64,000 bases of DNA. Origin: Erythrobacteraceae bacterium WH01K. GTDB taxonomy: Bacteria; Pseudomonadota; Alphaproteobacteria; Sphingomonadales; Sphingomonadaceae. Under the pieces are notes generated by a model. The model was given only the letters and a program-made list of their open reading frames with translations, was not told the origin of the DNA and ran no database searches. The position numbers and the translations under genes were made by a program. This document shows, in pieces, positions 14,932 to 45,415 of this stretch. How positions within the stretch are numbered: position 1 is the stretch's first letter; every line of letters starts with the position of its first letter. The stretch spans positions 1,426,001-1,490,000 of the forward strand of contig CP115966.1 in NCBI GenBank assembly GCA_027941995.1, given 5' to 3'.

Positions 14932-15096
14932 CCATGTCAAATTTTGGGCCGGTTGCTAACAGTCCGCTCCCAGGCGACTGCGCAGCAGAAGCAGACGGCA
15001 GTCTGCTTGATCGAGACCACCCGCTCGTGTTCGCTTTGAAAAGGTTCTTGGTGGAGAGGGTCTCGTTTCTATTTCGCTGTGAACAGAAACCTGAGC

Positions 15097-15489
15097 TTAC
15101 GCCGGTCTTCGCCAATACTTCCCTGCTATCCGTTCGGCGATAAAGCTGCCAGCAACTACCCCAAACGTGACCCAGATGATGACGCTTGGACCGTGTTTCC
15201 CGAAATCAGCCAAGCCGAATGCCACCATGGCAAAAAGCGCAGCACCAATCAGAAATGTTGGCCCTGCGATCATGCAGTGAAGCCGACGGCAACGCAAAGC
15301 GTTTAACGAGCACGCCGCCCCCATCCATAGGAACAGCACCGCCGCGATTTCCACCCTCTCGTTCGGTTGCAGAAGTTCTGCGGTAAAGTTTAGGCCGATT
15401 AGCGCCGCAAACGGCACGCCCCAGATTAGGATACGGTGCAGACGGTTGGCGGCCAAGTCACGCTTGTTGGTGGCTTCCGCGTTGCTCAT
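15097..15489 (-). CDS. Four-helix membrane protein, last gene of the mer-type operon
   Basis: 130 residues with four hydrophobic segments (ILIWGVPFAALIGLNF, IAAVLFLWMGAACSLNAL, MIAGPTFLIGAALFAMVAFG and VIIWVTFGVVAGSFIA). The family is not recognised. Its ATG overlaps the stop of the oxidoreductase gene (ATGA), so it is the fourth gene of the merT operon. A supporting role at the inner membrane in metal handling is possible but unproven. Confidence 0.7.
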   Translation of the reverse strand: MSNAEATNKRDLAANRLHRILIWGVPFAALIGLNFTAELLQPNERVEIAAVLFLWMGAACSLNALRCRRLHCMIAGPTFLIGAALFAMVAFGLADFGKHGPSVIIWVTFGVVAGSFIAERIAGKYWRRPA

Positions 15490-16817
15490 CCCAACATATA
15501 CCCTGCATCGGAGGCCGCCGTCGGATAAGCGAACATGGTAGATTTGATGTCGTCCGCGTTTAGCCCATGGCGCATGGCCAAGCCGAAGATATTGACGAGC
15601 TCGTCGGCGTCAGGGCCGACCAAGTGGGCTCCAAGGATGCGTCCCGTTCCGTTCTCGACCAGCAGCTTGTGGCCGTAGATCTCTTCGTTCAGCCGCCTCG
15701 CCGAGAACCAACCAGGGTGCGAGCCAGCATGCACCGTGAAATCCAGCCCTGCCTCACGCGCCTCGCTTTCCAGCATTCCGACCCTGGCCGCCGGCGGCTC
15801 CGTGAAAAGTGCACTTGGCACCCCTCGATAGTTCGGAGTTCGACCGGTATCATCGAGTATGTTTTCTACCACGACCTTGGCATCGTTACTGGAGACTGGA
15901 GTCAGTGGCGGGCCATTTGCAGCAGCGTCACCTGCCGCGAAGACCTTGGGGTTACTTTGGCTCCGTAGCTGGGCGGTAAGTGCCAAGCGACCCGCGTCAC
16001 AGGCGACGTCTCCCGCCTCCAGATCGAGCGAGCCGATCGCAGGGATTCTTCCGGCAGCGTGCACCACCAGGCTCCCTTCGATCCTGCGGTCGCCAGCATG
16101 GACGGTCAGCACGCTGCCTTTCTTCGTTACGCGGTCCACTTCAGCGTCCACAATTTCGATGCCGAGATCATCGAAACTTGGCATGAGCCAATCGACCGTG
16201 TCAGGGTCGAAGGCTTTCAGAATGCGGCCTCGTTGGAAGATTGTGACCTTTGCACCGGCGCGCGCGGCGAGGTGGGCAAATTCTGCGGCAATGTATCCGC
16301 CGCCGACGAATACGATCCGATCTGGAAGGGTTTTGAGTTCTAGGAATGCATCGCTGTGAATCAGCAATTCCTCACCTTCGATCCCAAGCGGTCGAGGCTC
16401 TGCTCCCGTTGCGATAAGAGCGTGCGAGAAACTCAGTTCCCGGTCGCCTATCACGATCCTGTCGGGGCCAGCAAAGCGTGCCGCGCCGTGAAAAGTCGCG
16501 ACGCCCTTACGCTCGTAGCGAGCTTCCTGCTTTTCAGGGACGGGGTCGGTAAAGCTGCGCTTGAATGCCTGGAGGTCGGCCCAATCAATTGAAACCGAGC
16601 CCTTGATGCCCTTCCCCTTCATTCGCCTGTATGCCGCGAGCGCTTCCTCTCCGCTCACCATCATCTTTTTCGGGTCGCACCCTCGAAGCGCACATGTGCC
16701 ACCGTAAGGCCGATAATCGATAACCGCGCAGCGCTTCCCGGCGTTGGCCATCTGGTGGACCGCGACCTGCGCAGCAGTTCCCGATCCGATGGCGACGAAA
16801 TCGAAAGCCTCAGCCAT
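15486..16817 (-). CDS. FAD/NAD(P) disulfide oxidoreductase, MerA-like but without the C-terminal Cys pair
   Basis: 443 residues. It has an FAD-binding N-terminus (FVAIGSGTAAQVAVHQMANAG), the redox disulfide GGTCALRGCDPKK, an NAD(P) site (RIVFVGGGYIAAEFAHLAARAG) and an FAD-site VFAAGDAAA. The position in a merR/merT locus suggests mercuric ion reduction. However, the vicinal Cys pair that ends true MerA is absent (the protein ends AGYMLG), and there is no N-terminal HMA domain. It could be a MerA variant fed by another thiol protein, or a glutathione-reductase-like helper. The start codon lies inside the stop region of the upstream gene. Confidence 0.8.
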   Translation of the reverse strand: MAEAFDFVAIGSGTAAQVAVHQMANAGKRCAVIDYRPYGGTCALRGCDPKKMMVSGEEALAAYRRMKGKGIKGSVSIDWADLQAFKRSFTDPVPEKQEARYERKGVATFHGAARFAGPDRIVIGDRELSFSHALIATGAEPRPLGIEGEELLIHSDAFLELKTLPDRIVFVGGGYIAAEFAHLAARAGAKVTIFQRGRILKAFDPDTVDWLMPSFDDLGIEIVDAEVDRVTKKGSVLTVHAGDRRIEGSLVVHAAGRIPAIGSLDLEAGDVACDAGRLALTAQLRSQSNPKVFAAGDAAANGPPLTPVSSNDAKVVVENILDDTGRTPNYRGVPSALFTEPPAARVGMLESEAREAGLDFTVHAGSHPGWFSARRLNEEIYGHKLLVENGTGRILGAHLVGPDADELVNIFGLAMRHGLNADDIKSTMFAYPTAASDAGYMLG

Positions 16818-17022
16818 GGCAGCAATCCCCTTCCTGTATTGGGGGGCAGGGAACGGTGCCGTACGAGCAAAACACGCAGCAATCGCCTTGGAGCGGCTGA
16901 AGGCGAACGCCGCAACCCGCGCAGTTATGGAAGAACAGGCAAGCGTTGGTCGGCATTTCCATGTCCTCCTCATGACCGCATTCGGGACAGCGCAAGCGCG
17001 AGATCAGGATCGGATCAGCCAT
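16810..17022 (-). CDS. Small Cys-rich GDCCV-motif protein of mer loci
   Basis: 70 residues with nine or more Cys: RCPECGHEED, FHNCAGCGVRL and GDCCVFCSYGTVPCPPIQ. Proteins with the GDCC...CPPxQ pattern are found in mer operons of several proteobacteria and probably bind a soft metal ion. The start at MADPILIS overlaps the merT stop by 8 bases, and its own stop overlaps the next start by 8 bases in the same ATGGCTGA arrangement, so the three genes are tightly coupled. Confidence 0.78.
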   Translation of the reverse strand: MADPILISRLRCPECGHEEDMEMPTNACLFFHNCAGCGVRLQPLQGDCCVFCSYGTVPCPPIQEGDCCHG

Positions 17023-17362
17023 AGAGGAAGGCACCTGTCAGCAGCGCCGCACCGATGGCAATTCCTATGGCGGTCAGCGCTCGATAAGTCGATGATCCGC
17101 ATGCACTGTCCGCCGGGCATGTTCGTGCCTGCCGAAACTGCCAGAGCAAACGGAGGGTCGCAGCGAGAAGAAGAGCCGACGCCAGGGTCAGCAACGGGAC
17201 GCGATAGGGGGCCAGGACCGGCGAGATGCTGCCAAGCCACGCCGAGCCCACACCCACCGACGCGAGCATCAAGGGCAGTGCACAGCATGCAGCTGCCCCG
17301 AAGGCTGCAAAGATACCTCCGCCCGTCGCCAATCCGTTCCACCATGTGCTGATGCCGCGCAT
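17015..17362 (-). CDS. merT: Mercuric transport protein MerT
   Basis: 115 residues and three membrane helices. The vicinal Cys pair of the first helix lies in FAAFGAAACCALPLMLASVG, followed by SAWLGSISPVLAPYR, as in MerT. A second Cys-containing segment (CPADSACG) lies between helices 2 and 3. MerT takes Hg(II) across the inner membrane for reduction. The ATG at 17362 is preceded by AAAAGGA. It is the first gene of a four-gene operon under the MerR-type promoter. No merP was seen. Confidence 0.87.
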   Translation of the reverse strand: MRGISTWWNGLATGGGIFAAFGAAACCALPLMLASVGVGSAWLGSISPVLAPYRVPLLTLASALLLAATLRLLWQFRQARTCPADSACGSSTYRALTAIGIAIGAALLTGAFLYG

Positions 17363-17394
17363 CGATCGTCCTTTTGCAAACCTCGATTCGCACA

Positions 17395-17428
17395 CCTATT
17401 TACAGTCTGTAGCAACTACAGACTCAAG
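17395..17428 (-). promoter_or_regulatory. MerR operator and merT promoter
   Basis: A perfect 9-bp dyad, AGTCTGTAG and CTACAGACT separated by CAA (17404-17424), lies between divergent merR and merT. On the minus strand TTGAGT and TAAATA flank it with a 19-base spacer, the overlong spacing typical of MerR-activated promoters, which the metal-bound regulator untwists. Confidence 0.88.
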
Positions 17429-17431
17429 AGG

Positions 17432-17827
17432 TTGGCTTTGAAAATTGGCGAAGTGGCGAAGCGGACCGGGTGTAACATCGAGACAATCCGGTATTACGAA
17501 CGGATAGGCGTTATCGATGCTCCGCCGAGAAGGGGCGCCTACCGCGACTATGGTCCTCACGACACGGAGCGCCTCCGCTTCATTCGGCGCGCGCGCGAAC
17601 TCGGATTTTCCCTCGAAGAGGTGCGGGCATTGCTTGACTTAACGCCAGGTCAGGAAGTGCGTTGCGATGAGGTGCAATCGATCGCCGAACAGCACCTCGC
17701 AAACATCCGTGCGAAGCGGGCCGACCTTGAGCGTATGGAGAACGCTCTCGCTAAACTGATCGAGCAATGTGGCACCACGAGCAATGATCGGTGCCCGGTA
17801 TTGGAAAGCCTCGCGGGCGAAGGCTAG
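17432..17827 (+). CDS. merR: MerR-family metal-responsive regulator
   Basis: 131 residues. The N-terminal winged HTH reads IGEVAKRTGCNIETIRYYERIG, followed by the dimerisation helix. Three Cys match the Hg(II)-binding trio of MerR: EVRCDEV, LIEQCG and DRCPVLE, the last two separated by seven residues. It represses and, with metal bound, activates the divergent merT operon. The start is a TTG (MALKIG), an unusual initiation codon; the operator dyad lies immediately upstream, which fits autoregulation. Confidence 0.87.
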   Translation: MALKIGEVAKRTGCNIETIRYYERIGVIDAPPRRGAYRDYGPHDTERLRFIRRARELGFSLEEVRALLDLTPGQEVRCDEVQSIAEQHLANIRAKRADLERMENALAKLIEQCGTTSNDRCPVLESLAGEG

Positions 17828-18011
17828 CCCAGCGAATTCAAGCTACAGACCAACGGGTTTCCACCCAGCACTCAAAATTGGCGCAGCCTGCCGGATCAGA
17901 AAAGCAAGCGGTCCGCTTTCGGGCACCTTGCAATGTGCGGCCTACGACCAGAATTGGGGCGCATAACGGTCATCATTGAAGGAGAGAGGAGGCAGCTTTG
18001 CTCATCCTGAG
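17828..18011. other. Intergenic stretch between merR and ardC
   Basis: No gene seen. It contains TTGGGGCGCATA near 17955, a motif that also occurs (reverse strand) in the intergenic repeats near 45.2 kb, and a GGAGAGAGGAGG purine run near 17980. Confidence 0.4.
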
Positions 18012-42940: not shown

Positions 42941-43033
42941 AGGGCCGCTATGTGCCAGATTTTCTGACGAATTGGGCCAGGCAGTTGGTCCAGGTGGTGC
43001 TTACACGCGAACGGCCGGATTTCGGAACCGCTC

Positions 43034-44248
43034 TCAGATCGCAAGAGTCTTGCGATGCCTCTCAATCGCGCTTCGCACGTCATCGGGGAAGGGCAGGTGT
43101 CCGCTTTCGTTGCTCCAGGCGTCGTCGAACTGTGCAACGACATCCTTCGCTGTCGCGGTGATCAGCTTGGCAGGCAGCCTTGCCTTGTCGGCGATCGCCT
43201 CGAGTTCATCATAGGTATAGGACGCCCACTCGCGCGAGCTATGAAACTTGAGTGCAGCATCGTCGCCTGGGATATAGGCGAGCGTCGAAAGCAGGTCATA
43301 GGCAGGTGCCAGCAGCGCGTTTCGCCTATCCGGATAGATCAACGACCAGTTCTTGAGGTGCATGTCGCCATTCCCGATCAGCACCGAGTAGGTGAGCCGG
43401 CGGACCAATTCGACCACGCTTTGCTCGTCGGTCTCGATCGCCAGCACGCTGAGGATCTGGCGGTAGCTCGCATTCTCGTATTTATCGTCTGCAAAGACAC
43501 CGAACACCTGGGCGAAGTCTTCGGTGTGTACGGGTCCCTCTTCTCCCCGGTCGAAGCGCCGGATGGCAAAAGCGGACTCTCCGTAACGGGTGATACCTTC
43601 GGGTATGCCATCAATCTGATCGAGCGGAACAAGGTCGATTTCAGGAACGTCGATCCCGATCTTTGCCGCCAGTTTCATCGCTGCGAATTCTGCCTCGGGC
43701 ACGTCCGGATGTCTGGCAGACGGGAGCTTGACGATCCAGTCGCCGCCGCTGCCCGTGACCGGGATCGTCAGCCCGCCATTCTTGCCCTGGGCTTTGATTG
43801 CCGAGAATTTGAGTTGCACGCCGGCAAGCGAGAAGCGCAGCGCGCGCTCTGCCTGCTTCCCCGCCGCTTCTTCATCTAGCTCGTCGGCCTCCGTTTCCTC
43901 GGCATCGACGGCGACGGCGCGCACTGCGCCGGGAAGATCGTGCCCGAGCTGTGCGAGAAGGTGGTACTCGCGCATGGCTTTCACGCCCGCGCGGCGGGCC
44001 AGGTAGTCGCGAAGCGTGCCTTCAGGAAGGAGGTTGGAGAAGAACGGCTCAATCTTCGTTCGATAGCTGCGTGTCTCGGCAATGATTTCGCCGTTCGCGT
44101 CCTTGTAGGCCAGCGACAGCGTTGGCCGATCCTGGTCGGCAAGGTAGACTTCGTCGAATGTGAAGATGCTCGCATCTCCATCGAGGCGCGCAATGGTTCC
44201 AACGCGCGTCTTACCCAGAAAGATATCGAGAGCAGCTGCGTCGATCAT
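43034..44248 (-). CDS. hipA: HipA-family serine/threonine kinase toxin
   Basis: 404 residues. N-terminal HipA domain (LDIFLGKTRVGTIARL, FFSNLLPEGTLRDYLARRAG), then the kinase core with GVQLKFSA, DWIVKLPS (ATP-binding Lys), the catalytic loop VLIGNGDMHLKNWSLI and the metal-binding PAYDLLST. E. coli HipA phosphorylates glutamyl-tRNA synthetase and induces dormancy; the target here is unknown. The ATG overlaps the hipB stop. It likely stabilises the ICE. The terminal 20 codons contain a hairpin (ATCGCAAGAGTCTTGCGAT). Confidence 0.92.
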   Translation of the reverse strand: MIDAAALDIFLGKTRVGTIARLDGDASIFTFDEVYLADQDRPTLSLAYKDANGEIIAETRSYRTKIEPFFSNLLPEGTLRDYLARRAGVKAMREYHLLAQLGHDLPGAVRAVAVDAEETEADELDEEAAGKQAERALRFSLAGVQLKFSAIKAQGKNGGLTIPVTGSGGDWIVKLPSARHPDVPEAEFAAMKLAAKIGIDVPEIDLVPLDQIDGIPEGITRYGESAFAIRRFDRGEEGPVHTEDFAQVFGVFADDKYENASYRQILSVLAIETDEQSVVELVRRLTYSVLIGNGDMHLKNWSLIYPDRRNALLAPAYDLLSTLAYIPGDDAALKFHSSREWASYTYDELEAIADKARLPAKLITATAKDVVAQFDDAWSNESGHLPFPDDVRSAIERHRKTLAI

Positions 44249-44868
44249 GTGGCGTCGTCCCCAAGGCGGTAAGCAGGCCGTCTTGAGGCACTGTCTTGAC
44301 CGATTGCTTGAACCTGCGAGTTTCTGACGTGTTGGAGGGCACGCGTGGATGCTGCGATCTGTTGGGTGAGTTTCTTCCTTCCCTCTTGCTGCTCAAGCGC
44401 CCAGCCGAGATCCTGGAGATGCTTTTTCAGATGAGCGACGGGCTGCAAGGCCTGCTCGATGGCTTTGAGCGTTTCGGGAGTGAAATTAACGGCCTGGATA
44501 TCCTTAAGTGCGCTTTGAAGCTCGGTCACTTCGGTGACGCTCGGATAGCTCTCCCGTACTCGCTCGGCGAACCGGTTGGTTTCGGCAATCGTTGCGAGCA
44601 CTCGACTTGCCTCGCTTCTTTCGCGCTGTGAGCGAACTACGCCTTCGATCGCCGGTACGGTCCTTCGAGGCACTAGCTTCAGTTCGAGGTCGAGCGCGCG
44701 CGCTATTTCGACGAGGCTGGAAATCTGTAGGTCTACACTCCCGCCTTCGATTTTGGAGATATGGCTTTGAGGCAAGCCTACCCGTTCACCCAGCTGTTTC
44801 TGGGTAAAGCCTTTTGCTATCCGTGCCGCTTTGATGCTTGCGGCGATGTCCTCGATTGTCGTGCTCAT
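44245..44868 (-). CDS. hipB: HipB-like antitoxin with extended C-terminus
   Basis: 207 residues, against about 90 for classic HipB. The N-terminal XRE HTH (IKAARIAKGFTQKQLGERVG, LPQSHISKIEGG) matches HipB; the C-terminal 120 residues are helical with Gln-rich segments (HLKKHLQDLGWALEQQEG) and have no clear family. Two dyads overlap its promoter. It should neutralise HipA and repress the operon. The added C-terminal domain is unusual. Confidence 0.85.
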   Translation of the reverse strand: MSTTIEDIAASIKAARIAKGFTQKQLGERVGLPQSHISKIEGGSVDLQISSLVEIARALDLELKLVPRRTVPAIEGVVRSQRERSEASRVLATIAETNRFAERVRESYPSVTEVTELQSALKDIQAVNFTPETLKAIEQALQPVAHLKKHLQDLGWALEQQEGRKKLTQQIAASTRALQHVRNSQVQAIGQDSASRRPAYRLGDDAT

Positions 44869-44870
44869 AA

Positions 44871-44916
44871 ATATGTTTCTACATATGCTGGCCTACGTCT
44901 ATATGTTTTAGCATAT
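44871..44916 (-). promoter_or_regulatory. Paired hipBA operators
   Basis: Two near-identical dyads, ATATG-TTTCTA-CATAT (44871-44886) and ATATG-TTTTAG-CATAT (44901-44916), lie 30 bases centre to centre (about three turns) right before the hipB start. This fits cooperative binding by the HipB HTH. Confidence 0.75.
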
Positions 44917-44944
44917 ACCATGATCGTTGAGAAAGGCAATAGAG

Positions 44945-45002
44945 ATATGCAATGGCATATATACACTACCCATGATAGGCCATTGCATATCATGGGTAGT
45001 GT
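44945..45002. repeat. Two interlocked perfect inverted repeats
   Basis: Repeat 1: ATATGCAATGGC (44945-44956) with GCCATTGCATAT (44979-44990), 12 bp. Repeat 2: ACACTACCCATGAT (44963-44976) with ATCATGGGTAGTGT (44989-45002), 14 bp. The arms alternate (1, 2, 1', 2'), so both cannot form simple nested hairpins; a pseudoknot or alternate structures are possible. Function unknown. Confidence 0.7.
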
Positions 45003-45415
45003 TTGCCGCGCATAAAGCGTGAGCCGTCGTCACTTCAAAGAGCCTTTTCCCGCTCTTTCGATGACAGAGCTTTCGCCCAGAGATCTGCCATTCAGTCAGG
45101 AAGGCCAACGGCGGCAATGCGCCCTAATCCCGGTCATTCGAGTAGTCACGATTTTCGCCCAAAAGCTGCCGTTGGTTCAGACTAGCGTCGATGGCAGCTA
45201 TGCGCCCCAATAGCGGCCATAAAGTCAGGCCAGGACACGCTTGAAAGCTGCCGTTCCAAAGTTTCGTCTGATTGAGGGAAAATAAGCCTTCAATCGCAAT
45301 AGGTCGAAAAATTTTCTTCGCGATGCGTCTTGGTCGCTGAAGTGAGGCGCATGAAATCCTCGTTAAGTTCGGCTTTGCCGTATCGTGACCGTGCACGAAT
45401 TAAGTTGCTCCTTCA
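45003..45415. repeat. Intergenic region with imperfect tandem repeats
   Basis: No gene supported (a 90-codon frame on the minus strand has no family character). Two related units share GGC-AATGCGCCC-AAT-CCGGTCAT / GGC-TATGCGCCCCAAT-GCGGCCAT blocks followed by AAAGCTGCCGTT (about 45112-45175 and 45190-45260). The same TTGGGGCGCATA core occurs near 17955. This looks like a dispersed intergenic repeat. Confidence 0.5.

Follow-up and report, generated by a model that had tools for sequence, protein, structure and literature searches.

Interlocked inverted repeats upstream of an alphaproteobacterial hipBA locus probably form part of a four-site HipB operator array

Introduction

Why should two perfect inverted repeats interlock their arms just upstream of a hipBA toxin-antitoxin locus? 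We take up this question for a 64-kb stretch of DNA from Erythrobacteraceae bacterium WH01K (hereafter the window, meaning the whole stretch that was analysed), where such a pair of repeats lies 76-134 bases upstream of the hipB start codon. The original prediction, made from the letters of the DNA, held that no gene explains these repeats, a claim at odds with their place in the hipB promoter region, and offered an RNA pseudoknot, a switch between two hairpins, or a multi-site operator as possible explanations. The HipB protein of E. coli binds cooperatively to four operators, and HipA acts as a co-repressor (PMC3920265, PMC3376134). We put at roughly 0.92 the probability that the repeats in the window make up the upstream half of an array of four sites at which HipB, either by itself or together with HipA, represses transcription from its own hipBA promoter, and that the longer of the two repeats is the dyad of the fourth site, extended in this lineage.

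Results

The two repeats, neither of which is assigned a strand, have interleaved arms with four bases in common (44988-44991). One, which we call IR2, is a 13-bp perfect inverted repeat with a 22-nt gap (arms GATATGCAATGGC at 44944-44956 and GCCATTGCATATC at 44979-44991), and the other, IR1, is a 15-bp perfect inverted repeat with a 10-nt gap (arms ACACTACCCATGATA at 44963-44977 and TATCATGGGTAGTGT at 44988-45002). They had been described as perfect repeats of 12 and 14 bp sharing two bases; both are indeed present and interleaved, but each arm had been taken one base short. When gaps of up to 60 nt are allowed, IR1 is the longest perfect inverted repeat of the 64-kb window, and IR2 is joint second in length with one other 13-bp repeat. 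Dinucleotide shuffles of 44861-45060 produced an arm of at least 13 bp in 5 of 20,000 cases and an arm of at least 15 bp in 0 of 20,000. The repeats are therefore not a product of chance, just as the original prediction had judged.

The genes that follow form a predicted type II toxin-antitoxin module. The kinase-toxin gene hipA (43034..44248, minus strand) encodes a 404-aa protein whose HipA domains score above their curated cut-offs (Pfam HipA_C, 2.1e-48, 165.2 bits against 30.5; N-terminal Couple_hipA, 1.7e-23, 83.4 bits against 22.5), and PDB matches show similarity to solved HipT and HipA kinases. Upstream of hipA, and overlapping its start by 4 nt, lies the antitoxin/repressor gene hipB (44245..44868, minus strand), which encodes a 207-aa protein with an XRE-type HTH at about residues 6-64 (Pfam HTH_3, 2e-13, 50.6 bits) that weakly matches E. 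coli HipB structures. Against the NCBI curated HipB models, this protein falls below the cut-offs (TIGR03070, 41.5 of 71.65 bits; NF007271, 26.4 of 79 bits). By its gene context and its HipA partner, the protein is HipB-like without being a member of the TIGR03070 or NF007271 subfamilies, and the pairing of this HipB with the putative operators is therefore drawn from position and conservation. Some 140 residues extend past the HTH, compared to a whole length of 88 aa for HipB in E. coli; the extension has no Pfam match and is retained in plasmid relatives, where matches cover residues 1-205.

Four 16-bp dyads of the form ATATG-N6-CATAT lie upstream of hipB on the minus strand, with start-to-start spacing of 30, 44, and 30 bp. 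Box 1 (44871..44886, ATATGTAGAAACATAT in hipB orientation) fits the motif exactly and stops 2 nt short of the hipB start codon, while box 2 (44901..44916, ATATGCTAAAACATAT), also exact, holds the likely -10 element. Box 3 (44945..44960, ATATGCCATTGCATAT) is a third exact site whose core points the opposite way from those of boxes 1, 2, and 4, and box 4 (44975..44990, ATATGCAATGGCCTAT) has one mismatch to the motif. In a pattern search of the 2.92-Mb genome, exact ATATGN6CATAT occurs at 3 sites, all of them here and within 90 bp, and the reversed control pattern occurs 0 times; box 4 is one of 29 sites in the genome with a single mismatch. The first arm of IR2 lies in box 3 and the second in box 4, such that IR2 amounts to these two boxes facing each other. 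The box cores are slightly asymmetric, being C-A-rich on one strand, and boxes 3 and 4 almost automatically form a long inverted repeat because their shared core is oppositely oriented; in the window haplotype, the cores of these two boxes happen to be identical. The centre of IR1, at 44982.5, is the exact dyad centre of box 4.

The array is conserved among relatives of this locus. We compared 18 relatives whose HipB is full-length and 85-100% identical; they come from named genomes, most of them Erythrobacteraceae, and their promoters together with that of the window represent nine haplotypes. All four boxes are in place in 9/9 haplotypes, at about -18, -48, -92, and -122 of hipB; no box has more than one altered half-site base, and box 2 is almost invariant. 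Invariant columns make up 34 of the 40 half-site positions versus 20 of the 80 spacer positions (Fisher p about 3e-10). Box 4 reads ATATGCRATGACATAT in the 8 other haplotypes versus ATATGCAATGGCCTAT in the window haplotype. In 11 further genomes of the family with this locus, we counted 2-5 exact copies of the motif each, of which at least 2 lie in the hipBA promoter and the rest are scattered singly.

More distant relatives were sought by protein, since a DNA similarity search of plasmids returned no matches. HipBA systems on Novosphingobium, Sphingomonas, and Sphingobium plasmids (HipB 47-48% identical) keep the array at a spacing of 30/43-44/30 with little else recognisable, and in the hipBA promoters of two Novosphingobium plasmids, box 2 has the very sequence that box 3 of the window gives when read in reverse (ATATGCAATGGCATAT). 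In a Mesorhizobium relative (39%), the array is spaced at about 30/45/31 and one of its boxes is degenerate. Used as a DNA probe on 385 genomes of the class, the exact box pair matched the window's own genome only, and two matches in viral contigs are unrelated to hipBA.

The arrangement of the promoter bears on whether the repeats would act as DNA or as RNA. By eye, we recognise a likely hipBA promoter (44910..44939, minus strand) with a -35 element TTGCCT (44939-44934), an 18-nt spacer, and a -10 element TATGCT (44915-44910), of which the columns TTG and TATATGCT are conserved among haplotypes; a sigma-70 consensus scan of the region scored no promoter, this candidate included. Transcription of hipBA would likely start near 44903, downstream of both repeats, and repeats lying upstream of the start would act as DNA sites. 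This placement argues against the repeats being transcribed and controlling hipBA as an RNA pseudoknot or two-hairpin switch, as had been proposed. The RNA reading draws on the stability of the IR1 hairpin, which is very high (61-nt fold, -31.5 kcal/mol, z -6.6), and on the full IR1 and IR2 stems being mutually exclusive because of their shared bases. However, free-energy folding, with a program that does not model pseudoknots, yields two separate side-by-side hairpins. The full interlocked form is sterically implausible, as giving the shared bases to IR1 leaves 0 nt to span a 9-bp stem, and there is no Rfam match.

Comparison with other genomes, the check that the original prediction had suggested, gives no sign that either repeat covaries as a structured RNA would. 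Positions of IR2 match at 8-11 of 13 in the other haplotypes and do so without covariation. For IR1, the covariation test is positive when the window haplotype is included, but the signal is lost without it and pairing in relatives is then near chance, so that the signal is an artefact of the perfect haplotype itself. With no IR2 covariation, an IR1 stem that is missing in relatives, a promoter predicted downstream, and the steric problem, the pseudoknot and switch options find no support, and we consider RNA-level control highly improbable.

The putative operators account for IR2. The outer arms of IR1 are specific to the window haplotype. Homologous loci that fail to preserve one repeat had been named in advance as a sign that the repeat is accidental, and this is what we see for IR1: the 15-bp repeat is absent from the 8 other haplotypes, where 5-9 of the 15 pairs can form, the three innermost, operator-fixed pairs being kept and the remainder near chance. 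Over 160 bp, the window and six named genomes share the IR1 haplotype without a single difference; the six are Erythrobacter ani, Pseudopontixanthobacter vadosimaris, two Qipengyuania, Parerythrobacter lutipelagi, and Croceicoccus gelatinilyticus. The copies are 99.8-100% identical over the hipB region (44000-45000 bins), whereas the adjoining transfer gene is mostly 92-97% identical. The block of hipB and its promoter (window 43000-45140) is thus near-identical in seven genomes of several genera and mosaic with respect to the transfer gene, which speaks to recent spread of the block by recombination. Given this recent spread, presence in seven genomes is no proof of selection on the palindrome.

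Haplotype comparison also gives hints of how the palindrome was made. Set against the majority of the other haplotypes, the window carries different bases in 8 of the 14 columns that separate box 4 from box 3 and in 5 of the 12 columns of the outer flank, with arms that are now perfectly complementary. A stretch of the outer flank, CCATGATA, is common to several relatives, and its reverse complement is new on the other side of box 4. The same change altered a conserved half-site of box 4 from CATAT to CCTAT. We think it somewhat probable that IR1 arose at an imperfect operator palindrome when a template switch copied one of its flanks onto the opposite side, and we prefer one such event because it is simpler than many independent substitutions. 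Two points count against a template switch: no intermediate haplotype was found, and both flanks of box 4 differ from those of relatives. The mechanism has been documented at imperfect palindromes in E. coli (PMC7202029), and template switching creates perfect stems elsewhere (PMC8794818). In these published quasipalindrome mutations, one event likewise makes imperfect arms perfectly complementary, whereas the window case is read from haplotype comparison alone.

Alternatively, the 15-bp palindrome could be a functional gain kept by selection, as a stronger or cruciform-forming fourth operator or as a site for a second regulator. Perfect 15-bp arms are beyond what any of the 20,000 shuffles produced, and the haplotype is found in several genera, both of which would fit such a gain. 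However, the near identity of the copies makes their persistence a matter of recent spread and not of selection on the palindrome, box 4 lost a conserved half-site base in the change that built the palindrome, and the 8 other haplotypes, like the distant relatives, do without the palindrome. We therefore hold a selected gain to be unlikely. Less likely still is that the 15-bp extension alters hipBA control, be it through a second regulator site or through an extruded cruciform that would interfere with the outer operator pair and increase expression of the toxin-antitoxin genes, and that this aided the spread across genera.

It is also conceivable that IR1 came from outside the operator array, as a terminator, a transposon end, a REP or MITE sequence, or an oriT-type repeat of a nearby MobF relaxase gene. 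The region does carry a TrwC/MobF relaxase gene, which lies beyond hipA, and a segment junction is found about 130 bp away. Nonetheless, IR1 has no second copy in the genome and none in IMG/VR, it lacks a T tract, it involves no length change compared to relatives, and it is centred precisely on box 4. A foreign origin is thus very improbable. Within this group of readings, the terminator was dropped when none was detected, as was the repeated or mobile element for a sequence that is single-copy in the genome and absent from IMG/VR.

Discussion

The reading of the repeats as operators gains from comparison with a known system. The measured E. coli hipBA boxes, TATCCN8GGATA, lie at -134, -106, -67, and -39 with a spacing of 28/39/28, and the window shares this plan of four dyads in two evenly spaced pairs upstream of hipB and hipA. 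Regularly spaced, matching dyads of the kind that marks a HipB-type multi-site operator are found here, as four conserved boxes. The multi-site operator, one of the options originally offered, is strongly supported by a genome-unique motif, by four boxes at 30/44/30, by conservation, and by this likeness to E. coli. The two systems differ in their half-sites, which are ATATG/CATAT in 16-bp dyads in the window and TATCC/GGATA in 18-bp dyads in E. coli. Since the boxes in the window do not follow the E. coli consensus, the array would work like that of E. coli with a different specificity. Further differences from E. coli are that box 1 lies directly against the start codon and that the window haplotype has an extended outermost dyad.

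Among alphaproteobacteria, the hipBA1 and hipBA2 promoters of Caulobacter crescentus are described as holding a series of inverted repeats whose spacing is compatible with complexes of HipA and HipB on the promoter (PMC7029023). The likeness to the window, that of alphaproteobacterial hipBA genes with serial inverted repeats, concerns these described intervals. By gene content, the array in the window belongs with hipBA operator arrays, from which it differs in its half-sites and in its longer HipB. Nothing that we found requires a new mechanism.

In the mechanism that we propose, HipB or a HipB-HipA complex would occupy the putative four-box array and thereby bring about hipBA autorepression. 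Within each of the two pairs, boxes sit 30 bp apart, which is about three helical turns, and HipB and HipA may pair cooperatively across each 30-bp box pair. The candidate promoter would fall in the 28-bp gap between the pairs, with its -10 element inside box 2. As for IR1, the dyad of box 4 would have been lengthened outwards on both sides to 15 bp and then carried into other genomes by recombination.

These observations provide a candidate operator motif, ATATGN6CATAT at a spacing of 30/44/30, for an alphaproteobacterial hipBA group, and one that is directly testable. They also illustrate how an operator palindrome can become a striking but probably non-functional hairpin. More generally, perfect interlocked repeats in a single sequence can be operators plus recent mutation, and not RNA structure, which should serve as a warning.

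The surroundings of the locus have a mosaic character of their own. At window 45124-45142, homology between relatives of the hipBA region ends abruptly in 14 of the 18 loci, and we therefore place a modular junction there, about 130 bp upstream of the repeats. Past it, a segment that carries UbiB-like, MarR, and efflux genes and runs to at least 49868 is common to four loci only. Imperfect direct repeats with units around AAAGCTGCCGTT, TTTCGCCCA, and ATGCGCCC lie near the junction (window 45074-45260), and one further 59-bp stretch with 80% identity is found elsewhere in the genome. Lastly, 3,020 bp of the window (14945-17964) match an Erythrobacter MAG contig with one mismatch; this stretch lies directly upstream of hipB in that contig and about 27 kb away from it in the window, and it is probably a recently moved element.
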